Below the pieces are notes generated by a model. That model was not told where the DNA came from. It did no database searches and saw nothing but the letters and a program-made list of their open reading frames with translations. Positions 4,958 to 59,828 of a stretch of DNA of 64,000 nucleotides are shown piece after piece. This stretch comes from Robiginitalea myxolifaciens. Lineage in GTDB: Bacteria; Bacteroidota; Bacteroidia; Flavobacteriales; Flavobacteriaceae. The position numbers and the translations under genes are program-made. The stretch spans positions 868,001-932,000 of the forward strand of contig NZ_FOYQ01000002.1 of the NCBI RefSeq assembly GCF_900115205.1, given 5' to 3'. Position 1 is the stretch's first letter. Every line of letters begins with the position of its first letter.

Positions 4958-6151
4958 TTACGCCAGAACTTCTTTTACTTTGTCGGCTGCCTCCTGAAAC
5001 TGTACGGCCGAGTGTACCGCGAGGCCGGAATTGTCCAGAATCTCCTTAGCGAGTTCCGCGTTGGTACCCTGCAATCGCACAATGATCGGCACTTTAATAG
5101 CGTCTCCCATGTTTTTGTAGGCATCCACCACTCCTTGAGCTACCCGATCACATCGAACAATACCTCCGAAAATATTGATCAGGATCGCCTGAACGTTCTC
5201 GTCTTTGAGGATAATGCGAAAGGCTTCTTCTACCCGCTTGGCGTCTGCAGTACCTCCGACATCGAGGAAGTTGGCAGGTTCTCCCCCAGCCATCTTAATC
5301 AAGTCCATGGTGGCCATAGCCAGCCCGGCTCCATTCACCATACATCCCACATTACCATCTAAATCAACGTAATTTAAGCCTACCGCCCGCGCTTCTACTT
5401 CAATGGGGTTCTCCTCCCTCAAATCGCGCATTTCGGCGTATGATTTCCGGCGATACAAGGCATTGTCGTCCAGGGTTACCTTGGCATCGACCGCCATAAT
5501 TTTATCGTCTGAAGTCTTCAGGACCGGATTGATTTCAAAAAGGCTTGCATCGCTTTGTTCGTAGGCCTTGTAAAGCGCAGTAACGAACTTGCTCATCTCT
5601 TTGAAAGCGGTTCCTGACAACCCCAGGTTAAATGCGATTTTACGCGCCTGGAAGGGCAACAAACCGGTGGCCGGATCAACTTCTTCCGTAAAGATCAGGT
5701 GAGGCGTTTTCTCGGCGACCTCTTCAATATCCATTCCCCCTTCTGTCGAGTACATAATCATCACCCGCGCAGTGGCCCGATTCAGTAATACAGACATGTA
5801 AAATTCACTGGTCTCCGAGGGACCCGGGTAATACACATCCTCCGCAATAAGAACCTGGTGAACCTTTTTACCTTCCGCGGAAGTCTGCGGGGTTACGAGA
5901 TTCATCCCGATGATTTGCCCGGCGATTTCCTCTACCTCTTTCAGGTTTTTAGCCAGCTTCACGCCACCGCCTTTTCCGCGACCTCCCGCATGAACCTGTG
6001 CCTTGATTACATGCCAACTGGTACCCGTTTCCTGCGTAAGTTGCTTAGCAGCATCGACGGCTTCCTTGGCATTGTGCGCGACCAGGCCGCGCTGAATGCG
6101 GACTCCAAAGCTTTCTAAAATCTGTTTTCCTTGGTATTCGTGTAGATTCAT
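4958..6151 (-). CDS. sucC: Succinate-CoA ligase (ADP-forming), beta subunit
   Basis: Beta subunit of the TCA-cycle enzyme that makes ATP from succinyl-CoA. The 397 residues from MNLHEYQGKQ match the family's usual length. An upstream extension to 6265 would cross the -7 box at 6215-6222 and is rejected. The N-terminal ATP-grasp region has VHAGGRGKGGGVKLAKN. The C-terminal CoA-ligase domain carries the NIFGGIVRCDRVAQGV phosphate-binding loop. No sucD is next to it, so the alpha subunit must be encoded elsewhere. It is a monocistronic unit with its own promoter and terminator. Confidence 0.97.
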   Translation of the reverse strand: MNLHEYQGKQILESFGVRIQRGLVAHNAKEAVDAAKQLTQETGTSWHVIKAQVHAGGRGKGGGVKLAKNLKEVEEIAGQIIGMNLVTPQTSAEGKKVHQVLIAEDVYYPGPSETSEFYMSVLLNRATARVMIMYSTEGGMDIEEVAEKTPHLIFTEEVDPATGLLPFQARKIAFNLGLSGTAFKEMSKFVTALYKAYEQSDASLFEINPVLKTSDDKIMAVDAKVTLDDNALYRRKSYAEMRDLREENPIEVEARAVGLNYVDLDGNVGCMVNGAGLAMATMDLIKMAGGEPANFLDVGGTADAKRVEEAFRIILKDENVQAILINIFGGIVRCDRVAQGVVDAYKNMGDAIKVPIIVRLQGTNAELAKEILDNSGLAVHSAVQFQEAADKVKEVLA

Positions 6152-6214
6152 ATCGGTTAATTCTAGTTTGATACTGGCCGGATTACGCCCGGTACAGGTG
6201 GAATATTTCGAGTA

Positions 6215-6222
6215 CAAAAATA
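6215..6222 (-). promoter_or_regulatory. -7 box of the sucC promoter
   Basis: TATTTTTG on the minus strand fits TAnnTTTG and would give a leader of about 57 bases to the ATG at 6151. No TTG is found at the -33 distance. Confidence 0.5.
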
Positions 6223-6304
6223 GGGAACGAGAAGCACATCCCCTAATCGAGAACGCCTTTTCCAAAAAGCTGAAAAATGGCCGTTTTTGCCGTATTCCCG
6301 AGGT

Positions 6305-6946
6305 CTATTCCAATTTAAAATCCTCAAAGTCGAGCGGATCGTAATTGCGAAAATGGCCATTCATTTCAATGCGTTCCCGGGTAGCATTAAGTTGAGACAG
6401 CACCTCAGCCGTTTGTTGCAGGTGATCATTGATAAATTGCAGGCGCATCGCCTCAGAGGTCATTCGGAGTAAGTCAAATTCCTGACGCATACTCAGGCCA
6501 ATTTTATGGGCCAGGGTAAAACTGTTGAAACGATCCGGATCTATGGGTTCATGAGTAAGATCCATGAGCTTATATAGATCCTGTATACCGGTTATAACGC
6601 GTTGCTTTAGTTCCGGGTCGGAATCCCGGATTTGATCGAGAAACTCCACTTCCCCACCGGGATAGGGTTTTCCAGACCACAAGGACTCAAAGCTCTTTAA
6701 ACGAAACACCTGGCGCGCCGCGCAAACCACATCCCTGGAACCATCTGCGTAGGTATTGACTACCCGGGCAAGCTGAACTTCTGTCCCATAGCTCAATGTA
6801 TTGTCGATAAAAACAGGTATCCCAAAAGTCTGGGATTCCCGATGGCAATCTTCAATAAGGGCTTTGTACCTGGGCTCGAAAATATGCAGGGGTACGGTTT
6901 CTCCTGGAAAAAATACTGTACGTAGTGGGAAAAGCGGTAAATTCAT
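6305..6946 (-). CDS. LON peptidase N-terminal (substrate-binding) domain protein
   Basis: A 213-residue stand-alone relative of the N-terminal domain of the Lon protease. It opens with LPLFPLRTVFFPGETVPLHIFEPRY, split here as LPLFPLRTVFFPGE and VPLHIFEPRYK, which is the family's signature PUA-like barrel. A helical part follows (about residues 115-195). There are no ATPase or protease domains, as is usual for this family. The function is not established; substrate or adaptor binding is possible. The gene is on its own on the minus strand, divergent from lysA. Confidence 0.93.
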   Translation of the reverse strand: MNLPLFPLRTVFFPGETVPLHIFEPRYKALIEDCHRESQTFGIPVFIDNTLSYGTEVQLARVVNTYADGSRDVVCAARQVFRLKSFESLWSGKPYPGGEVEFLDQIRDSDPELKQRVITGIQDLYKLMDLTHEPIDPDRFNSFTLAHKIGLSMRQEFDLLRMTSEAMRLQFINDHLQQTAEVLSQLNATRERIEMNGHFRNYDPLDFEDFKLE

Positions 6947-6993
6947 AGTAGTTCTAAGCTACGAAGCACCGGGGAAAAGGACAAGCGGAATGT

Positions 6994-7015
6994 AATTGTT
7001 ATTTATACAACAATT
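6994..7015. promoter_or_regulatory. Inverted repeat in the divergent lysA region
   Basis: AATTGTT-N8-AACAATT lies between two divergent starts (6946 and 7094). It could be an operator for either gene. No known site was recognised. Confidence 0.35.
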
Positions 7016-7069
7016 TGTTTTAAAATTAATATTTCTAATAAAATATTCGTCGATTCCAGCCCAGTGTCA

Positions 7070-7077
7070 TAGCTTTG
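7070..7077 (+). promoter_or_regulatory. -7 box of the lysA promoter
   Basis: TAGCTTTG fits TAnnTTTG. Transcription would begin near 7083, leaving a leader of about ten bases before ATG 7094. At -33 only TTC is seen. Confidence 0.5.
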
Positions 7078-7093
7078 GAGAAAATAATGCACC

Positions 7094-8398
7094 ATGGAAA
7101 ATCAACAATTGCTGGACATTGCCCAAGAGTTTGGAGCCCCTGTTTATGTCTATGATGCTGGTAAAATCCAGTCGCAATACAACCGCCTGACCGAAGCCTT
7201 TAGCAGTGTACCCCGTTTAAAACTAAACTACGCCGCAAAAGCGCTTTCGAACCTCTCCGTCCTGCGTTATTTAAAAAGCCTGGGGAGCGGCCTGGACACC
7301 GTGTCGATTCAGGAAGTACAATTGGGCCTGCGGGCAGGTTTTAATCCGGAAGACATTATCTACACGCCCAATGGAGTAAGTCTGGAAGAAATTGAGCAGG
7401 CTGCTGCCCTTGGGGTCCAGATCAATATCGACAACCTCTCTATATTGGAGCAGTTCGGGCATTTGCATCCAAAAACTCCTGTTTGCATACGTATTAATCC
7501 GCATGTTATGGCTGGTGGAAATTCCAATATTTCCGTGGGCCATATCGATTCAAAATTTGGGATTAGTATCCATCAGATTCCGCATTTGCTAAGAATTGTT
7601 GAACTCACCGGGATGCATGTCAATGGTATCCACATGCACACGGGAAGTGATATCCTCGATATCGATGTATTCCTCTATGCCTCTGAAATCCTTTTCGATA
7701 CCGCTAAGCACTTCAAGGAGCTGGAATTTATTGATTTCGGAAGCGGATTTAAGGTACCCTACAAAGAGAACGATATCCAAACAAATGTAGGGGAACTGGG
7801 TCAGAAACTCGGCGGACGTTTTAACGCATTCTGCGAGGAGTACGGTCGACCGCTGACGCTCTCCTTTGAGCCCGGGAAGTTTCTCGTAAGCGAAGCGGGG
7901 TATTTCCTGGCCCGGGTTAACGTGGTCAAGCAAACTACTTCCACCGTCTTTGCAGGTATCGATTCAGGATTCAACCACCTGATCCGCCCGATGCTCTATG
8001 GCTCCCAACACGAGATTCATAACCTCTCCAACCCGGAAGGAAAGGAGCGGTATTACTCCGTTGTTGGGTATATTTGTGAAACAGACACCTTTGGCAGCAA
8101 CCGGCGGATCCGGGAAATCTCAGAAGGAGATATCCTGTGCTTCCGCAATGCAGGGGCGTACTGCTTTACCATGGCCAGCAATTACAATTCGCGATACAGA
8201 CCCGCGGAAGTATTGTGGTTGGATGGAAAAGCCCATTTGATTCGCGAGCGGGAGACCTTTGAGGATTTGTTACGAGGGCAAGTCGAAGTTCCCGATTTAT
8301 TTGAGGCAAAACCTGCAGCACCCGTAGGAGGCGCACAGCAAACAAATGGCAATCGGCCCAAGGGAAACCTTAAAATAAAATCAGCTGCCGAACGTTAG
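7094..8398 (+). CDS. lysA: Diaminopimelate decarboxylase
   Basis: Makes L-lysine from meso-diaminopimelate, the last step of lysine synthesis, with PLP as cofactor. The 434 residues form the fold-III PLP barrel. The Schiff-base lysine is K49 in NYAAKALSN. Later come HMHTGSDI, the FEPGKFLVSEAG phosphate loop (lysine where many relatives have arginine) and the C-terminal GAYCFTMASNYNSRYRPAEVL segment, whose Tyr and Arg contact the substrate. A low-complexity tail of about 35 residues follows the enzyme core. The next gene starts 55 bases after the stop and may be cotranscribed. Confidence 0.96.
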   Translation: MENQQLLDIAQEFGAPVYVYDAGKIQSQYNRLTEAFSSVPRLKLNYAAKALSNLSVLRYLKSLGSGLDTVSIQEVQLGLRAGFNPEDIIYTPNGVSLEEIEQAAALGVQINIDNLSILEQFGHLHPKTPVCIRINPHVMAGGNSNISVGHIDSKFGISIHQIPHLLRIVELTGMHVNGIHMHTGSDILDIDVFLYASEILFDTAKHFKELEFIDFGSGFKVPYKENDIQTNVGELGQKLGGRFNAFCEEYGRPLTLSFEPGKFLVSEAGYFLARVNVVKQTTSTVFAGIDSGFNHLIRPMLYGSQHEIHNLSNPEGKERYYSVVGYICETDTFGSNRRIREISEGDILCFRNAGAYCFTMASNYNSRYRPAEVLWLDGKAHLIRERETFEDLLRGQVEVPDLFEAKPAAPVGGAQQTNGNRPKGNLKIKSAAER

Positions 8399-52412: not shown

Positions 52413-52736
52413 AACCAGGGAATTTTGCATGTTTCCTGCAGGCTGCAGGGATAATTTCGAAAAAATCTAAGTTGTTAGATACTAAACGATTGTAAAGCTG
52501 CGTTACCATTCAAAGCGGCAGGAATTAAAAGTTTTTGTATCCGCATTATTTGAGTTAGTATTTTTGAGTTAGTTAGTTTGAAAAACCCCACATCCCCAGG
52601 ATGCGGGGTTTTTTACGTTTATTCCCTACTGTCCCGGAGTAAAAGTTGATCGGGACTTACTTCCTTTAAGACTTTTTTAAGAAATCACATAGCAATTATC
52701 TTTAATTTCAAGGGAGCTAATTCATCAATCAAATCT
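52413..52736 (+). other. 324-base gap between purU and the AraC regulator gene
   Basis: No gene was found. It contains a promoter-terminator pair (52535-52615, listed separately) and a weak -7-like box TATCTTTA (52697-52704) that may serve the AraC gene. Confidence 0.6.
52535..52615 (+). ncRNA. Candidate small RNA: promoter followed at once by a terminator
   Basis: TTG (52535-52537), a 21-base gap, TATTTTTG (52559-52566), then the stem CCCCACATCC with GGATGCGGGG (52586-52595 with 52599-52608) and six T. The elements fit the Bacteroidota promoter consensus. A transcript from about 52572 would be only 40-45 bases long. It may instead be the terminator of purU with an accidental promoter. Confidence 0.4.
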
Positions 52737-54320
52737 ATGAGGCGCAGCAATATCATATCGGGGCCTGGTTCGGTCTTGTTCCTATGGAGCTGGTGCCTCT
52801 TTCTTTTGCTAAGCCCTCAATCACTTGTTGCAGAGCGCATTACAGAATCGGAATTTTACACTCCGGATCTCGATCTCGCCTTTCAACCGATCCAGGAAAA
52901 CCCCGGGCAACTATCCCTAAAAGATACCTTACTACAAGAACCCACAGCCGACGCAGTGGCGTATTATCAGCGTATGCTGGATTTTGGTGAAACTTCTCAA
53001 AAGATTCACGCTTCCCGTCAAATGGCTTTTCTCCTGGCCCAGGAAGGTAAAGCCGAAGCGGCTACTAATTTTGTGACCCAGTACCTGAATTGGGAATTTC
53101 GCCCTGAGGTCCTTGCCGATAGGAATTTTGACCCTATCCGAAATGAAGCAGCATTTCAGGAAGTAGTGGAGGCCTATTTACCCGAGCACTCCTTCTGGTC
53201 CTATTTGTACATCTATATAGGACTAATCGGAATTTTCATTGTGTCGGTAATCTGTTTTCAGCGGAAAGCAGAATTAGGGGGTCGCCTGCTTATCGGAGGC
53301 TTTGTCTTTATCCACTCTATTTTTATACTGCATATAGCCCTGGCTGTATCGAACTATCAATACGAAATCCCCCATTCCTACCTGAGCTCAACGGTATTTT
53401 CTTTTCTGTACGGCCCCCTGTTATACTTTTATTTCAAGCGGTCCGCCCAGGGATATACTTTCAAAGTAAGGGATCTGCTGCATTTGGTTCCCACCCTGAT
53501 CCTCCTGGGCTATTTAATTCCGATTTACGGTCTTTCAGCAGCCGAAAAGCTGGATTTGATGCTCAGCCGGTACCGGGATGGCTTAAACCCGTCCGACTCG
53601 GCTAACCTGGTACTTATCGTCTCCCTTAAACTGACCTCCCTGGTTATTTACGGATGGTTGATCCGGCGGCATTTCCCGCAGATTGTCGGTAGTGCCAAAC
53701 AGCCACCCAGAACCCATTGGGAGCAAAACATCTACCGCATCCATGTTGCCTACATTATTTGTTATGCTATCTACGGCGGACTTATCATTTACCGGATCAA
53801 TTCCGGCCCCTTTTATCATGCCCAGGTAATCAGTATGGCATTGATGGTACTTTATGTAGGGTACTTTGCCAGTCTGAAACCAGAAGTTTTTGGATCTACC
53901 CTGGCATTCCAACCCTTACTCTTTTCCAAGTACAAGAAATCAGGCCTGACCCCCAGTTTCTCAAAAGAGTTGCGAGATCAACTGACCAAATTATTCGAAC
54001 AAGAAAAAATATACCGGGAAAATGACCTGAACCTGGACCGGTTGGCAGACTTGCTGGACACCACCCGGCACAATACCTCCCAGGTGATTAACGAACACTT
54101 TAAAGTGAGCTTTCACGAGTTGATCAATACCTATCGTATTGCGGAAGCCAAGGAATTACTGCGTAACGATCCCCAGGGAAATCTTCAGATTATCGACATC
54201 GTTTACGAGGTTGGTTACAACAACAAGGTCTCCTTCAACAAGGCCTTCAAAAAGGACACGGGACTTACCCCCAGTGCCTTCCAGGAACGCGCTGCCAAAC
54301 TCGAAGTAAAGCGGGCGTAA
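52737..54320 (+). CDS. Membrane-bound AraC-family transcriptional regulator
   Basis: A 527-residue regulator. An N-terminal signal or anchor (to about residue 32) is followed by an exported part (about 33-155), seven or so membrane helices (about 160-380), and a C-terminal AraC domain (about 400-520) with two helix-turn-helices: NLDRLADLLDTTRHNTSQVI and QIIDIVYEVGYNNKVSFNKAFKK. It probably senses a signal outside or in the membrane and controls the susC-susD pair that starts 199 bases later. Repeats at 54316-54348 are its likely sites. Confidence 0.92.
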   Translation: MRRSNIISGPGSVLFLWSWCLFLLLSPQSLVAERITESEFYTPDLDLAFQPIQENPGQLSLKDTLLQEPTADAVAYYQRMLDFGETSQKIHASRQMAFLLAQEGKAEAATNFVTQYLNWEFRPEVLADRNFDPIRNEAAFQEVVEAYLPEHSFWSYLYIYIGLIGIFIVSVICFQRKAELGGRLLIGGFVFIHSIFILHIALAVSNYQYEIPHSYLSSTVFSFLYGPLLYFYFKRSAQGYTFKVRDLLHLVPTLILLGYLIPIYGLSAAEKLDLMLSRYRDGLNPSDSANLVLIVSLKLTSLVIYGWLIRRHFPQIVGSAKQPPRTHWEQNIYRIHVAYIICYAIYGGLIIYRINSGPFYHAQVISMALMVLYVGYFASLKPEVFGSTLAFQPLLFSKYKKSGLTPSFSKELRDQLTKLFEQEKIYRENDLNLDRLADLLDTTRHNTSQVINEHFKVSFHELINTYRIAEAKELLRNDPQGNLQIIDIVYEVGYNNKVSFNKAFKKDTGLTPSAFQERAAKLEVKRA

Positions 54321-54348
54321 ACATTAATCGGCGTCCGTAAACGTTGAT
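54316..54348. promoter_or_regulatory. Paired CGTAAAC boxes upstream of susC
   Basis: CGTAAACATTAAT (54316-54328) and CGTAAACGTTGAT (54336-54348) are direct repeats with a 20-base period, between the AraC gene and susC. AraC proteins often bind such paired half-sites, so they may be the regulator's operator. The same box recurs after susD. Confidence 0.5.
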
Positions 54349-54519
54349 AAGGCTTACCCTTCCCCCTGCCACATCCCGATACCTTGAATGAAATTTCGTG
54401 CCTTGCTGCACTGTTGTTTCACTCGGGAATAGCCAACCTACTTACTACGCTTACCACACCATTTACCCAGCTTTCCTAAGTGCGCATTGTTTCAAGTCCA
54501 CGGCAAAACGCGCAACATT

Positions 54520-57500
54520 ATGAAGTATTTAAAAATGACCCTGTGTCTGGCACTATTGCTGACCTTCGCCCCCTTGCAGGCACAGGAACAAAAAACAGTA
54601 AGCGGAACCGTTACCGACCAGGCCGGCATCCCGCTTCCGGGGGTTAACATTCTGGTCGAAGATTCCCAACGGGGTACACAATCCGATTTTGACGGGAATT
54701 ACAGCATTCAGGCTGCGGCCGGGGAAGTCCTGGTCTTTTCCTACCTGGGGCAAGAGACCCAGCGCCTTACCGTGGGTGCCAGTAATCGCATTGACGTTGC
54801 CATGCAGGAAGATGCCACCGCCCTGGAGGAAGTCGTTGTGATTGGTTATGGTAATCAGGAGCAACGAAAAATCATCCAGAATGTCGGGATCGTAAAAGAA
54901 GAAGCTATTGATAATTTGGTGGTTACTTCCGCTGATCAGTTGCTTCAAGGGCAAACAGCCGGAACACAGATTGTAAATTCCTCAGGTGTCCTGGGGTCGG
55001 CTTCTGTAATCCGCGTCCGCGGGGTCAACTCCATCAACTCGGGGAGCCAACCCCTGATTGTTATCGACGGGGTGCCGATTACAGATACGGAAACCAATAC
55101 GCTTAACCGTGGGGGGAATACGGGGATAAATCCGTTGTCGTACGTGAACCCGAATGATATCGAATCCCTTACGGTGCTCAAGGATGCCGGGGCTACTTCG
55201 ATCTATGGTTCCCGGGGTGCTAACGGAGTAATTCTGATTACGACCAAAAAAGGACGGAAAAATCAGGCGGCAACCGTAACCCTCGATGTGAGTACCCAAT
55301 ATACCTCAGCCACGGATGTTCCGGAAATTCTTTCAGCCGATGAATTCCGAACCTTTAAATCCGAAGTGGCCAGCATTCAACAGGGCACTACCGTGACCCC
55401 AGAAGATTTGAATCTGGGTGCCTTGGGTTCAGGAGGAACCGATTGGCTGGCAGGCGTGCAACGGACCGGTATTTCGCAGAACTACAGCCTGGGGATTCGC
55501 GGGGGTACAGAAAACACCACCTATTTTATCGGGGCAGACTTCCAGGATACCGAAGGTTTCATCATAGGTAATAACCAGCAACGTTCCGGGGCCCGTATCA
55601 ATCTGGAGACCGAAGTGAATTCATGGTTGACCGCCGGGATGAACCTCGGGGTCACGAATACCCGTCTGAATCGGGTAGGTGTTGAAAACAATACATTCGC
55701 TCCCTTTACCACGGCCTTCCTTCAGAGTCCGGTTGTCCCGGCATTCGACGACGAAGGCAATTTTGCTCAGTCAGGATCATTTATTCCGAACATCTTCGCC
55801 ATTGTGGCCCTGGATACGGATGAACTCAAGACCTTCCGGTCTATCGGGAATTTCTACGCCGAAATTACCCCTTTCAAGAATGTTACCTACCGGGCCGATT
55901 TTGGGTTTGACAAACTGGAACTGGAGGAATTCCTCCGCTTTACAGATTTCAATACCCCGGGGGGTGCTGCACAACAGTTGAACGTCGCGGAAGATCGCTG
56001 GCTTACGAACCAGACGCTTACCTACACCAATCAATGGGGAGATCACAGTCTTACCGCTTTGGCGGGTCTGAACTACGAGGAAACCCTTAGAACCCGGTCT
56101 AACGTGAGTGTAACCGGTTTCCTGACCGATGACTTGCGAAACCTCGGGTCCGGATCGACCCCTACGATTCTCAATGGAGATCGCTTCCCTTCCCGTTTGT
56201 ACGGGCTTTTTGGCCGGGCTTCCTATGATTATGCCGGCAAATATCTGGTAGAAGGTTCCCTGAGAAGGGATGGTTCCTCCCGATTTGGGCGGAATAACCG
56301 CTTCGGATATTTCTGGTCTGTAGCTGCGGGATGGGTATTATCCGAAGAGAATTTCCTGGCAGATGCTACCTGGTTGGATTATTTATCGCTCCGGGCCAGT
56401 TTGGGAACTGTAGGAAACGATCGCCTGGGTACCTTTCCTTCGCTGGGGTTATTCAACGCGGGCGCCATCGCAGACTATAACGGACAATCCGGGGTTATCC
56501 CGAATCAACCGGCCAATCCGGATCTGAAATGGGAAGAAAGCGAAACCCTGGATATCGGGATTCGTTCCACCCTTTTTAAGGGGCGTCTGACCGCGAATAT
56601 TGCCTATTTCAAGAAGACTACCAGCGACCTGCTCCTGAACCAGGTGCTGCCTCCCCAAACCGGGTTTACCTCCATCTCTCGAAATGTCGGGGAAATGGAA
56701 AACCGGGGATGGGAATTTGATATCAGTTCGGTAAACGTGCGTACGGACAAGTTCGAATGGCGCACCAGCCTTAACCTAACGACAATCGACAATGAGGTAC
56801 TCCGCCTAAACGCAGATGCCGCTACCGATGAACAGGGACGCCGAATCATTGACGGCCCCATTCAACGTGCCATAGAAGGGGAAAGCCTGAACAACTTCTT
56901 CCTGATCCGCTATGTCGGGGTTAATCCGGAAACCGGAGATGCCGAATGGCTCGACAAGGATGGCAACATTACCCTGAACCCCGGGTCGGGGGACCGGGTG
57001 GTAGCAGGAAGTCCACTCCCTGATTTCTCAGGGGGTATCACCAATACCTTCCGCTACGGAAATCTGGATTTGAGTATTCTGATGAATTACTCCTACGGAA
57101 ACGATGTGGTCATTGACGGGCTGCGTTTTGCCGACGGTAATGATGCCATTGGAGGTATTGTAAATATCCGCCGTCAGAACCTGGATTACTGGCAAGCACC
57201 CGGGGACAGGGCCTTTTTACCTTCCCCAACCAGCAGCACCTTTAACCTGTTCAACCAGCGCTCTACCCTGCAGATGCTGGACGCTTCTTACCTCCGCCTT
57301 AAAAATGTAACCCTGGGATACAACCTGCCACAGCGGGCCCTGGATCAAATGGGAGGGATATTCAAAGGGCTTCGGCTCTACGTAACGGGTACCAACTTGT
57401 TTACCATCAAGCGGGATGAAATGAAAGGGATTGACCCTGAAGTTACGGATGACATTGATCCGCTTTTCCAGGGAGAATCCTTCTTTACCGCCCCGCAGGC

Positions 57501-57537
57501 AAAGAGCTATTTATTTGGTGCACGCATAACCTTTTAA
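54520..57537 (+). CDS. SusC-family TonB-dependent receptor
   Basis: Outer-membrane, TonB-driven importer, 1005 residues. The start is ATG 54520; a TTG at 54487 is less likely. The signal peptide ends at LQAQ. A carboxypeptidase D-like domain follows (VSGTVTDQAGIPLPGVNILVEDSQ, in part), with FDGNYSI. The TonB box region is VVVIGYGNQEQ, and the plug has IRVRGVNSINSGSQPLIVIDGVP in two strands. The barrel ends in KSYLFGARITF. It forms a pair with the SusD lipoprotein. No glycoside hydrolase is nearby, so the cargo is unknown. Confidence 0.95.
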   Translation: MKYLKMTLCLALLLTFAPLQAQEQKTVSGTVTDQAGIPLPGVNILVEDSQRGTQSDFDGNYSIQAAAGEVLVFSYLGQETQRLTVGASNRIDVAMQEDATALEEVVVIGYGNQEQRKIIQNVGIVKEEAIDNLVVTSADQLLQGQTAGTQIVNSSGVLGSASVIRVRGVNSINSGSQPLIVIDGVPITDTETNTLNRGGNTGINPLSYVNPNDIESLTVLKDAGATSIYGSRGANGVILITTKKGRKNQAATVTLDVSTQYTSATDVPEILSADEFRTFKSEVASIQQGTTVTPEDLNLGALGSGGTDWLAGVQRTGISQNYSLGIRGGTENTTYFIGADFQDTEGFIIGNNQQRSGARINLETEVNSWLTAGMNLGVTNTRLNRVGVENNTFAPFTTAFLQSPVVPAFDDEGNFAQSGSFIPNIFAIVALDTDELKTFRSIGNFYAEITPFKNVTYRADFGFDKLELEEFLRFTDFNTPGGAAQQLNVAEDRWLTNQTLTYTNQWGDHSLTALAGLNYEETLRTRSNVSVTGFLTDDLRNLGSGSTPTILNGDRFPSRLYGLFGRASYDYAGKYLVEGSLRRDGSSRFGRNNRFGYFWSVAAGWVLSEENFLADATWLDYLSLRASLGTVGNDRLGTFPSLGLFNAGAIADYNGQSGVIPNQPANPDLKWEESETLDIGIRSTLFKGRLTANIAYFKKTTSDLLLNQVLPPQTGFTSISRNVGEMENRGWEFDISSVNVRTDKFEWRTSLNLTTIDNEVLRLNADAATDEQGRRIIDGPIQRAIEGESLNNFFLIRYVGVNPETGDAEWLDKDGNITLNPGSGDRVVAGSPLPDFSGGITNTFRYGNLDLSILMNYSYGNDVVIDGLRFADGNDAIGGIVNIRRQNLDYWQAPGDRAFLPSPTSSTFNLFNQRSTLQMLDASYLRLKNVTLGYNLPQRALDQMGGIFKGLRLYVTGTNLFTIKRDEMKGIDPEVTDDIDPLFQGESFFTAPQAKSYLFGARITF

Positions 57538-57572
57538 TCATGCAGCTCCTAATTCATTTAAAAAAAGAAATC

Positions 57573-58982
57573 ATGAAAACAAATCATATACTAGCAACCC
57601 TGTTAGGCCTTTTCCTGCTGGTAGGCTGCGAGGACCGTTTGGATGTGGTCCCGGAGGACCAGGTAGCTTCTAACACGGTATTCAATAGCCTGGCCACAAT
57701 CGACGGGGCCGTAGTTGGGATTTACAGTAAAAACCAGAGTGGAGACCTCAATGGGATGGCCCAGCTTACGTCCGACTTTATGGCCGACGACGTGAATTTT
57801 GTAGGAAGCTTTACCTCCCTGCAGGAAATTGATCAGTTCGAAACGCTGGCCACGAACACCTCGGTCGACAACATTTGGCTGGACGGCTACGAGCTAATCG
57901 GCGCTGCAAACAATGTCATTGAAAACCTGCCGTTGGTTTTCGATGTTCAGGGCGTCGATGAAACGGTTAAGGCTCAGTTTATAGCCGAAGCCAAATTCTT
58001 AAGAGCCCTAACCTATTTTCAGCTTGTTAACCTGTTTGCGCAACCCTATCAGTTCGCTCAGGGTGGAAACCTGGGAGTACCCCTGGTATTACAACCATTC
58101 GAAGGGGGAGACATCAGCAGCTTCCAACTCGAGCGATCTACGGTCAATGAGGTTCATGCTCAAATAGAATCGGATTTAATGGATGCCATTGCAGACCTTC
58201 CTGCGGATAATGGCGTTCGGGCAGAATCCGGATCGGCCAGAGCCTTGCTGGCAAGGCTATATCTCTATCGCGAGCAGTGGGCGCAGGCGGCCGCCCAGGC
58301 CGATATGGTAATCAGCTCCGGAAATTATTCCCTGGCAGCCGATTACGACTTCTATGACGACAACCCGGGTTCTTCGGAGCACATCTTTACGGTGGTAAAT
58401 ACCCCTTCCGACGGACCTCAGGAGGTTGCCGGCTCGGATGAAGTTTACGTGACCTTTTACAATGCAGCTCCCGGCGGGCGCGGGGACGCTCCTTTTAGCC
58501 AGAGCTTGCTCGATGCCTTCGCAGCAGAACCGGGAGATCGACGGTTCGATGAGCTTTCTGTTGCGGCTACGGATGCAGGAGGAAACAATACGTTTTTTAC
58601 CACCAAGTATCCGGACATCGTCAATGTTGCCTCCGACGGAATGGTCCTGAGAATAACTGAAATGTACCTGATCCGGGCCGAGGCCAACTTAAGGGGTGGA
58701 AGCAATGTCGGGGATTCTCCGATCAACGATATCAATTTACTGCGCAACCGGGCCGGTTTGGCACCACTCGGAAGCGTCGATTTAGATGCCATCCTGAATG
58801 AACGGCGGAAGGAGCTGTGTTTTGAAGGTCATCGCAGGATGGATCTGTTGCGCAATAACCGGAATCTTCGTCCCGGTGGCGGTCCCGAGTCCGAGCCCGG
58901 GGCTAACAAGGTGATCTTTCCGATTGTTGAGGATGAAACCACAAACAATCCGAACATCACACAGAACCCGGGTAATTTCTAA
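57573..58982 (+). CDS. SusD/RagB-family nutrient-binding lipoprotein
   Basis: A 469-residue lipoprotein (lipobox LLVGC) that caps the SusC barrel on the cell surface. The start is ATG 57573; an upstream ATG (57540) would add 11 residues before the lipobox. TPR helices form the first half. Marks are FLRALTYFQLVNLFAQPYQ, LARLYLYREQWAQAA and the RRKELCFEGHRRMDLLR block near the C-terminus. It is cotranscribed with susC and ends before the terminator at 59042. Confidence 0.95.
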   Translation: MKTNHILATLLGLFLLVGCEDRLDVVPEDQVASNTVFNSLATIDGAVVGIYSKNQSGDLNGMAQLTSDFMADDVNFVGSFTSLQEIDQFETLATNTSVDNIWLDGYELIGAANNVIENLPLVFDVQGVDETVKAQFIAEAKFLRALTYFQLVNLFAQPYQFAQGGNLGVPLVLQPFEGGDISSFQLERSTVNEVHAQIESDLMDAIADLPADNGVRAESGSARALLARLYLYREQWAQAAAQADMVISSGNYSLAADYDFYDDNPGSSEHIFTVVNTPSDGPQEVAGSDEVYVTFYNAAPGGRGDAPFSQSLLDAFAAEPGDRRFDELSVAATDAGGNNTFFTTKYPDIVNVASDGMVLRITEMYLIRAEANLRGGSNVGDSPINDINLLRNRAGLAPLGSVDLDAILNERRKELCFEGHRRMDLLRNNRNLRPGGGPESEPGANKVIFPIVEDETTNNPNITQNPGNF

Positions 58983-59041
58983 TTGCCTGTTCGGTTCGAT
59001 TCCGGTTATTCCAACAGGCTCGCCTTGAGAAGGTGGGCCGT

Positions 59042-59075
59042 GAAATCCGCACCCCTGGGTGCGGATTTCTTTTTT
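59042..59075 (+). terminator. Terminator of the susC-susD operon
   Basis: A perfect 13-base stem (59042-59054 with 59057-59069), followed by six T. It is one of the strongest terminators in the window. Confidence 0.92.
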
Positions 59076-59077
59076 CC

Positions 59078-59133
59078 GGTAAACCTATGGCGTAAACCAC
59101 GCGTAAATAATCCTCGGATACGTAAACGTTTAT
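59078..59133. repeat. Cluster of CGTAAAC-like boxes after susD
   Basis: GGTAAAC (59078), CGTAAAC (59091), CGTAAAT (59102) and CGTAAACGTTTAT (59121) follow one another within 56 bases. The last matches the boxes before susC at 11 of 13 positions. They may be extra binding sites for the AraC regulator or the remains of a copy of the susC control region. Confidence 0.5.
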
Positions 59134-59294
59134 CCGGTTTTACGCCTTTTCCTGCCGAAGGTGGTTATTTAGAGGTATCAATCAAAAAACGCGATGCAGC
59201 TCTGAGGTCTACTTCCCTAAAAGACTTTCGTCTCATTTTTTAGAGTAGTATTTGAATTAGCTATCTGTACTTTGGGGCTGCTTGTTTTTTGATT

Positions 59295-59828
59295 TCAGTC
59301 CCTGGAATAAATTCCATTGAACAACGTCTGAATCACTTCTCCTTCCTCATTCAAAACATCCCAGGTCTGACGCACGCTTCCGTCTTTTTGTAGGGTCCAG
59401 GTAATCCGGTGCTGCCGTGAATCCCCATTTGGGTCCTCATAGGACTCCGAAGACATTATCATAGCGCCTTCAGTTACATTGCCATAGAGCTTCAAAACAT
59501 TACCGGCATTATCTACCCATACCTGTTCCCATTGCCCGGCTACGGTATTGTAATAATTGATGCTATTTCCAGTGGTACCTCCGGAACCTTTCCAATTTTC
59601 CCTCAGCAGACATCCATCCTGTAAGCGCTCAATACTATTTGTTCCCAAAAGATTCCCGGTAGCATCCCGAACATTCCATTCTCCTACCCAAAAATCAAAG
59701 GCCCTGTGATTCTCATCACAGCACGCACAAGGCTGCTGCTGGCCTTGCATTGGGTTACTCCATAGTACAGTAAATAGAACGACAAAAAAAAGGGGCTGAC
59801 CCATCCATTTCACGCCTTTAGTTTTCAT
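59295..59828 (-). CDS. Secreted DUF1579-like protein
   Basis: A 177-residue exported protein with a signal peptide ending at MQGQ. Three cysteines follow (QPCACCDE) and may be cleaved off or bind a metal. The domain begins with HRAFDFWVGEWNV, the mark of DUF1579 and its lipocalin-like relatives, and continues with SIERLQDGCLLRENWKG and GQWEQVWVDNAGN. A small-molecule or heme-binding role is possible from the fold, but no function is known. It stands alone on the minus strand. Confidence 0.88.
   Translation of the reverse strand: MKTKGVKWMGQPLFFVVLFTVLWSNPMQGQQQPCACCDENHRAFDFWVGEWNVRDATGNLLGTNSIERLQDGCLLRENWKGSGGTTGNSINYYNTVAGQWEQVWVDNAGNVLKLYGNVTEGAMIMSSESYEDPNGDSRQHRITWTLQKDGSVRQTWDVLNEEGEVIQTLFNGIYSRD

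Follow-up and report, generated by a model that had tools for sequence, protein, structure and literature searches.

A membrane AraC regulator, its candidate operators and a predicted hairpin RNA around a susCD operon

The window, i.e. the whole stretch of 64,000 nucleotides analysed here, carries a gene for a membrane-bound AraC-family regulator, a susCD operon behind it and, behind susD, a predicted hairpin RNA that we term H. Our analysis suggests, with a probability of roughly 0.65, that the seven-helix AraC protein would activate both susCD and the small RNA H, and that H would in turn feed back on its regulator and repress another SusC. This reading builds on what the sequence contains: conserved operators, a conserved and covarying structure for H, the linkage of H to araC, and complementarity between H and the start regions of araC and SusC genes; from these we infer binding, activation, transcription of H, the direction of repression and a signal.

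The membrane AraC protein and its candidate operators

The regulator gene and the sites around it are arranged as follows.

52549-52614, + strand: element U, two TTTGAGTTAG copies and then an intrinsic terminator, upstream of araC
52639-52660, + strand: candidate auto-operator GTAAAAGTTGATCGGGACTTAC, 98 bp upstream of the araC start
52716-52728, + strand: GCTAATTCATCAA in the translation-initiation region of araC, complement of an H seed (leader scan)
52737-54320, + strand: araC-family regulator gene, 527 aa (Pfam, hydropathy, AlphaFold model)
54316-54322, + strand: box A of operator E1, CGTAAAC, sharing bases with the araC stop codon TAA (54318-54320)
54336-54342, + strand: box B of operator E1, CGTAAAC of GTAAACGTTGATAAG (pair scans, locus scoring)
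54353-54359, + strand: putative inverted third half-site of E1, CTTACCC, proposed from its likeness to the site upstream of araC
54380-54387, + strand: weak candidate -7 element of susCD, TACCTTGA
54520-57537, + strand: susC, SusC/RagA TonB-dependent transporter, 1005 aa (TIGR04056, 791 bits)
57548-57559, + strand: CCTAATTCATTT in the susD leader, possible further target of H (leader-box scan)
57573-58982, + strand: susD, 469 aa (domain search)
59042-59075, + strand: intrinsic terminator behind susCD with a 12-pair stem (terminator scan)

As judged from hydropathy and an AlphaFold model (mean pLDDT 79.9), the AraC protein consists of a signal peptide, helices at residues 56-147 with weak TPR similarity, seven transmembrane helices between residues 153 and 380, and a helix-turn-helix (HTH) region at 406-526. 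Pfam assigns residues 436-518 to the AraC-type HTH (HTH_18, E 3e-16; HTH_AraC, 2e-6), for which 6swi is the best match both by sequence and in Foldseek. With its C-terminal AraC-type double HTH, the 527-aa protein belongs to AraC/XylS, and the earlier note on this DNA was right to call the regulator a membrane AraC protein. At E<=0.001 Pfam finds HTH models only and no kinase or receiver domain; the protein is thus not an HTCS. A relationship of the seven-helix bundle to GPCRs was considered and set aside: VIA-align yields Z scores of ~15 to many GPCRs at 4-12% identity, which is weak evidence since helical bundles can score high through arrangement alone.

The earlier note had proposed two CGTAAAC boxes with a 20-base period between araC and susC. 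Both copies are present, with a start-to-start distance of 20 bp, behind araC and before susC, except that box A overlaps the araC stop codon. Lone CGTAAAC motifs are unremarkable (8 in the window, 5.4 expected). The spaced pair is found once in the window compared to none in 100 shuffles, and once in the whole 3.2 Mb genome, where a reversed-pattern control gave none. The pair is real, but the idea of a two-box operator needs extension: CTTACCC at 54353-54359 seems, by its sequence, to be part of E1 together with both boxes, and further boxes are located behind susD. The fuller E1 unit reads GTAAACnTTnATCGG-n4/5-GTAAACGTTTATAAGnnTTTCCC. Among 11 loci with closely related SusC proteins (the window included) the pair is kept, by eye extended to GTAAACwTTyATCGG-n4/5-GTAAACGTTTATAAGnnTTTCCC.

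A contig scan with the regulator yielded 93 relatives, and the best 80 of these 93 loci were kept. Scoring the stretch from 12 bp before to 250 bp after the araC stop in 81 loci (L041 was left out on account of a contig end), we obtained a box-pair score of at least 22 of 30 in 43 of 81 loci, in none of 81 on the antisense strand and in 1 of 1620 shuffles. The 49 loci scoring at least 20 have a box spacing of 19 (37 loci), 20 (10) or 21 (2), with 19 as the usual value. Conservation of boxes at two-turn spacing behind araC, as put forward earlier, is supported. Furthermore, a genome-wide pattern, built from the E1 and E3 sites themselves (E3 is the operator behind susD, see below), has two matches in this genome and two in its congener G003, all of them at E1 or E3, and none in the reversed control. 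A sigma-70-type promoter scan gave no match at the operator and promoter sites in question; the -7 candidates listed here follow the Bacteroidota -7 promoter consensus.

The earlier note had named, as one refuting observation, that close relatives retain the operon but have lost the boxes; the outcome here is mixed. The pair is kept in 9 of 9 fetched loci with SusC 75-80% identical, and also in G003, whose SusC is 86% identical over the 430 residues compared. In contrast, an Allomuricauda-type group with a second, HTH-only AraC gene and a mostly distant SusC (28-29%) retains a single box behind the first AraC gene. In all, 24 loci (e.g. L063 and L078) show a second, HTH-only AraC-like ORF ~70 bp behind the membrane AraC gene, and the box pair there is reduced to one.

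A site related to the candidate auto-operator, matching at least 14 of 18 consensus positions, precedes araC in 82 of 82 loci, usually ~98 bp upstream of the start; the antisense and coding controls gave 0 of 82 each. The presence of a related site before its own gene in every locus points to this AraC protein as the natural binder of the boxes, which resemble the operator that the adjacent membrane AraC protein should have and are its putative target.

Farther upstream, element U may be sRNA-like or an attenuator. A U-like arrangement was seen in most of the 59 sites examined, ~190-240 bp before araC where checked; three of these sites (L071, L072, L104) are susC leaders and one (L080:7068) is H. 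The TTTTTTGAGTTAGTTAGT motif of element U has 18 matches in 17 of 199 family genomes, with an araC match following closely in 8 cases, and its complement CTAACTCA is found in susC leaders (see below). Duplex energies do not favor element U as a specific antisense RNA: they are unspecific, and araC ranks fifth of the 48 window ORFs.

The predicted hairpin RNA behind a second candidate operator

The region behind susD contains a second operator, followed by H.

59078-59144, + strand: operator E3 behind susD, with GGTAAAC at 59078, CGTAAAC at 59091 and CGTAAAT at 59102, then GTAAACGTTTATCCGGTTTTACG; CGTAAAC at 59121
59165-59172, + strand: candidate -7 element of the H promoter, TTATTTAG (TTACTTTG or near in most relatives, by eye)
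59179-59296, + strand: hairpin RNA H, predicted sRNA with estimated ends (79.5 bits at 59187-59290; the 3' arm enters a T-rich tail)
59230-59243, + strand: seed 1 of H, GTCTCATTTTTTAG, which complements start codons, AAAAAATGAGA for example
59251-59265, + strand: H seed 2, TTTGAATTAGCTATC, complementary to the araC and distal susC leaders
59295-59828, - strand: convergent gene for a 177-aa protein with a signal-like N-terminus (ORF list)

Pfam finds no match for the 177-aa protein. Because its gene is convergent, no gene lies downstream of H on the strand of H; inspection by eye shows H followed by a similar convergent gene in L040, L058 and L106, all without detected susC. In most copies among the relatives, TTACTTTG or a close variant lies ~43 bp past the operators and is followed by the hairpin. 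G003 has the same layout as the window, with H behind susD. The covariance model described below detects no H behind E1 in the window, where the only intact copy is the one behind E3.

H is a hairpin with a variable yet paired outer stem around the constant core TCTCATTTT...TTTGAATTAG, which within H reads GTCTCATTTTTT...TTTGAATTAGCTATC. In an alignment of 36 sequences, chosen by the core motif from 42 non-redundant hairpins, compensatory changes occur in 9 of the 10 pairs of the 10-bp outer stem and 95.1% of cells are paired, which none of 500 shuffles equalled. Left out of this alignment were L070:717, L072:345, L073, L078, L097 and L111, and 4 of 114 motif sites had been set aside (L116, plus sites with a weak stem in L071, L072 and L104). 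With the resulting covariance model, 76 of 82 sources yield a total of 117 matches at E<=0.0075. Every one of them is on the strand of araC, and those to the 36 sequences that built the model are matches by construction. The model matches this genome once, and H as a mobile or multicopy repeat was rejected. At gathering score, Rfam has no family matching the window or five further loci, and H was rejected as a known Rfam family. Weak matches appear only at E<=5; examples are rnk_pseudo, with 27 bits in the region of the susCD terminator, and BTnc005, with 22 bits at element U, both far below their cut-offs.

Loci with two copies combine one GAATTAGTCn loop with one GAATTAGCTA loop in 36 of 36 cases, in either order; we refer to these as GTCN and GCTA types. 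The count leaves out motif sites at positions 5000-7900, which are upstream elements (in L080 this applies below 6900), as well as the L070 and L072 sites located below 1000; L088 carries a third, coding motif site. Outside the araC locus, G000:C3:1809146 (locus L116, 1501) appears to be another sRNA-like gene that shares the core of H (TTCTCATTTT...ATTATTTGAATTAGTCAGCGG) and has a terminator to itself, and G003 has a match to it at C1:1317769.

H is linked to araC beyond this genus. Within the genus (10 genomes), a close relative of araC was found in one of the nine other genomes, G003 (59%). In 199 genomes of the family, representing 198 genera, the H model has 24 matches in 16 genomes. Each is preceded, within ~7 kb and on its own strand, by an araC homologue; for three apparent exceptions, reading the sequence revealed that the araC close by was diverged or HTH-only. 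At E<=1e-70, araC is matched in 39 of the 199 genomes, 15 of which also have an H model match (Fisher p 2.6e-11, phylogeny not corrected). Among the remaining 24 araC-bearing genomes, several show a diverged hairpin by eye and some none. These locus counts are not independent events, as the species are related.

Among 24 fetched loci without a SusC match by tblastn, H is kept in 20, 12 of them with a box-pair score of at least 22 and two of them on contigs ending shortly behind araC; L041, L047 and L107 are cut by contig ends, and 18 of the remaining 21 have H. Since H is kept without detected susC, the conserved unit seems to be araC, operator and RNA, with susCD optional. The earlier view of the boxes as simply the operator of susCD is not supported in this form: the same operators precede the candidate promoters of hairpin RNAs as well. 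That interpretation as a whole is partly supported.

Complementarity of H to araC and susC leaders

To find leaders complementary to H, 915 ORFs of 82 loci were scanned for CTAATTCA at -40 to -8 of the start. The motif occurs in 64 of 82 araC leaders, compared to 3 of 62 for susC, 1 of 20 for susD, none of 24 for other AraC-like genes and none of 717 for other ORFs, with gene starts taken from a simple ORF caller that may misplace start codons. The 18 araC leaders lacking an exact copy in the tested stretch comprise, by eye, 12 with a one-base variant, 2 with the motif just outside, L111 with two differing bases, and L041, L051 and L056 with nothing similar. The sister box CTAACTCA is confined to susC, where 27 of 62 leaders carry it. 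The window's susD is the sole one of 20 susD ORFs with a leader box (CCTAATTCATTT). The second block of H fits as well: 71 of 82 araC ORFs start with ATGRGR, compared to 54 of 727 other genes, and these starts match the GTCTCAT of H.

When possible partners were ranked within each locus, araC came first for 49 of 67 H cores, whereas shuffled cores reached a mean of 3.4 (maximum 6) and reversed ones 9. This test employed 67 H copies from 54 loci with an upstream T[CT]TCA[AT]T block, after removal of three antisense artefacts and L072:422. In the window, araC is narrowly the best of the 48 ORFs (-25.3 vs -23.9 in one test, -19.9 vs -19.2 in another). The local susC was rejected as a target in trans, since its duplex with H is weak and its leader has no complementary box; the missing box counts against our main reading. 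So do the lack of a detected H behind E1, the narrow lead of araC among the window ORFs, the araC-bearing genomes with no H model match, the single other genome of the genus with a close araC relative, the single box in the Allomuricauda-type group and the araC leaders lacking an exact motif.

Among the leaders tried, the strongest complementarity involves a distal SusC gene of this genome, G000:C2:1231206, ~304 kb away. An exact complement of TTTGAATTAGCTA begins 23 nt before its ATG, and the complement of CTCATTTTTT covers the start codon. The predicted duplex amounts to -38.6 kcal/mol; of the other SusC-type leaders tried, the next one reaches -21.7, and no window ORF out of 48 does better than -19.9. 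With this gene, H shares the extended complementarity to a transporter start region that characterizes FopS and OmrAB. Among the 30 of 56 sites read in 14 other H-bearing genomes, the same leader precedes a SusC that is apparently orthologous, as judged by its N-terminus, in six genomes. The 29-nt leader (at most 3 mismatches) is present in 29 of 199 genomes: 10 of the 16 H-bearing ones have it, as do 19 of the 183 in which no H was detected. Its presence in the latter indicates conservation independent of H and perhaps another role, which also counts against our main reading. We dropped this leader as proof of co-evolution with H, the comparison being confounded by phylogeny. At G027:C1:1295473 (L184), a peptidase-like gene (family assigned by eye) has a similar leader, AATAGCTAATTCAAATAAAAAATGAGG, which suggests that H has targets beyond SusC.

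Several other readings of these data were weighed. The boxes could be an ordinary AraC operator for susCD only and the hairpins terminators or leader attenuators without function in trans, as would suit the AraC-type HTH, the position of E1 directly before susC, the terminator-like shape of H with its T-rich tail and the hairpin within the susC 5' leader of a number of relatives. We regard this as unlikely. A plain terminator needs no invariant core, yet the stem changes around a TTTGAATTAG that never varies among the 36 aligned copies, which this motif had served to find. Moreover, an operator and a promoter-like site of its own precede H in the stretch between susD and the convergent gene, its complement specifically marks araC leaders, and its persistence in 20 of 24 loci without detected SusC does not fit an operator serving susCD alone.

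The hairpin within susC leaders is also the starting point for a reading in which H acts mainly in cis, its loop pairing with the ribosome-binding region of susC as a translational switch, and the stand-alone copies are relics or decoys. Four distant loci (L159, L161, L163, L164) have TTTGAATTAGTC in a leader hairpin and its exact complement GACTAATTCAAA shortly before the susC start, and in L035, L036, L102 and L108 the GTCA-type copy pairs best with the susC of its own locus. Nevertheless, stand-alone copies with operators and T-rich tails keep both seed and stem, the sole intact copy in the window stands alone, and it is araC leaders that carry the box, which makes a predominantly cis-acting hairpin improbable. 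Very unlikely, finally, is that TTTGAATTAG and CTAATTCA constitute the DNA-binding site of another regulator instead of RNA partners. The same 8-10 bp do recur near several genes of one system, but their orientation is opposite in H and in the leaders, they sit ~20 nt before start codons, a second block is complementary too (GTCTCAT and ATGAGR), and the flanking stem covaries as RNA.

A proposed circuit and known systems

In the activator-sRNA circuit that we favor, the periplasmic and seven-helix part of the AraC protein would sense a signal, and its cytoplasmic HTH would bind GTAAAC half-sites just upstream of promoters. Binding would activate susCD and, from the second operator behind susD, H, while the related upstream site would allow the protein to control its own gene. 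H would present two conserved stretches inside a long terminator-like hairpin, which may pair with two parts of the araC mRNA, its CTAATTCA leader box and its AUGAGR start. A further partner in this genome may be the start region of the second SusC ~304 kb away. Such pairing would block translation, resulting in negative feedback on the regulator and, through the distal target, in a swap of one SusC for another. On a broader scale, the odds appear even to us that this constitutes a self-contained signalling module of marine Flavobacteriaceae, in which a single-protein seven-helix membrane transcription factor and twin hairpin sRNAs with two fixed types of seed (GTCN and GCTA) provide post-transcriptional self-control and SusC exchange, kept also without adjacent susCD.

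If true, Flavobacteriaceae would possess their own sRNA family for post-transcriptional control of SusC, without detected kinship to FopS, and a one-protein membrane transcription factor would wire this sRNA into a regulator-sRNA feedback loop. The circuit would also explain why the regulator persists without its operon. The analysis provides testable operators, one sRNA and two targets for which pairing is predicted. In the open-licence literature, which was searched in part, no title or abstract pointed to a paper on an RNA of this sort from Flavobacteriaceae; such a paper may nevertheless exist.

Control of susC-type genes by noncoding RNA is also attributed to the DonS type, reportedly described by Cao in 2016 as cis-encoded antisense RNAs of PULs; H differs from what is said of these in lying on the susCD strand, as its own intergenic unit with its own operator. 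As for the regulator, HTCS of PULs likewise fuse a membrane sensor to an AraC-type HTH and employ direct-repeat operators and susCD targets, according to the available part of PMC3878776. The AraC protein differs from them in having a seven-helix bundle in place of the histidine kinase and receiver domain of an HTCS. A transcriptome of F. psychrophilum reports many new RNAs (PMC9723704, available part).

Post-transcriptional control of SusC is already known from gut Bacteroides. In Bacteroides thetaiotaomicron the sRNA FopS represses susC translation and, as for H, paralogous sRNAs are antisense to the start regions of susC mRNAs (PMC11697453, available part). As described there, FopS is ~65-70 nt long, has a single-stranded 5' seed whose sequence differs, is transcribed from sigma-ABfr promoters and responds to bile salts, and that part of the source reports no feedback on a cognate regulator. 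In contrast to a single-stranded 5' seed followed by a terminator hairpin, the seeds of H lie inside the predicted hairpin. FopS has been deposited in Rfam according to the same part of PMC11697453, but its model is possibly absent from the Rfam copy used here, which returned no FopS match to H at gathering score (window and five loci) and none among matches at E<=5 for L068:9530-10400 and window positions 58983-59400. Thus, as judged from sequence, Rfam scan and layout, H is not a FopS.

A close parallel to the proposed circuit comes from E. coli, where the twin sRNAs OmrA and OmrB are activated by OmpR and repress ompR as well as outer-membrane siderophore receptors (PMC12692685, available part). 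Twin sRNAs activated by a regulator and acting on that regulator and on outer-membrane receptors are what we predict for H, whose effects are predicted only and whose complementarity to the mRNA of its own putative activator is seen in the 49 of 67 copies with araC as best partner. The two systems belong to different phyla, and according to the same part of PMC12692685 OmpR acts as response regulator within a system of two proteins, compared to a single seven-helix AraC protein here, and OmrA and OmrB employ 5'-end seeds and Hfq, whereas H carries its seeds within a hairpin.
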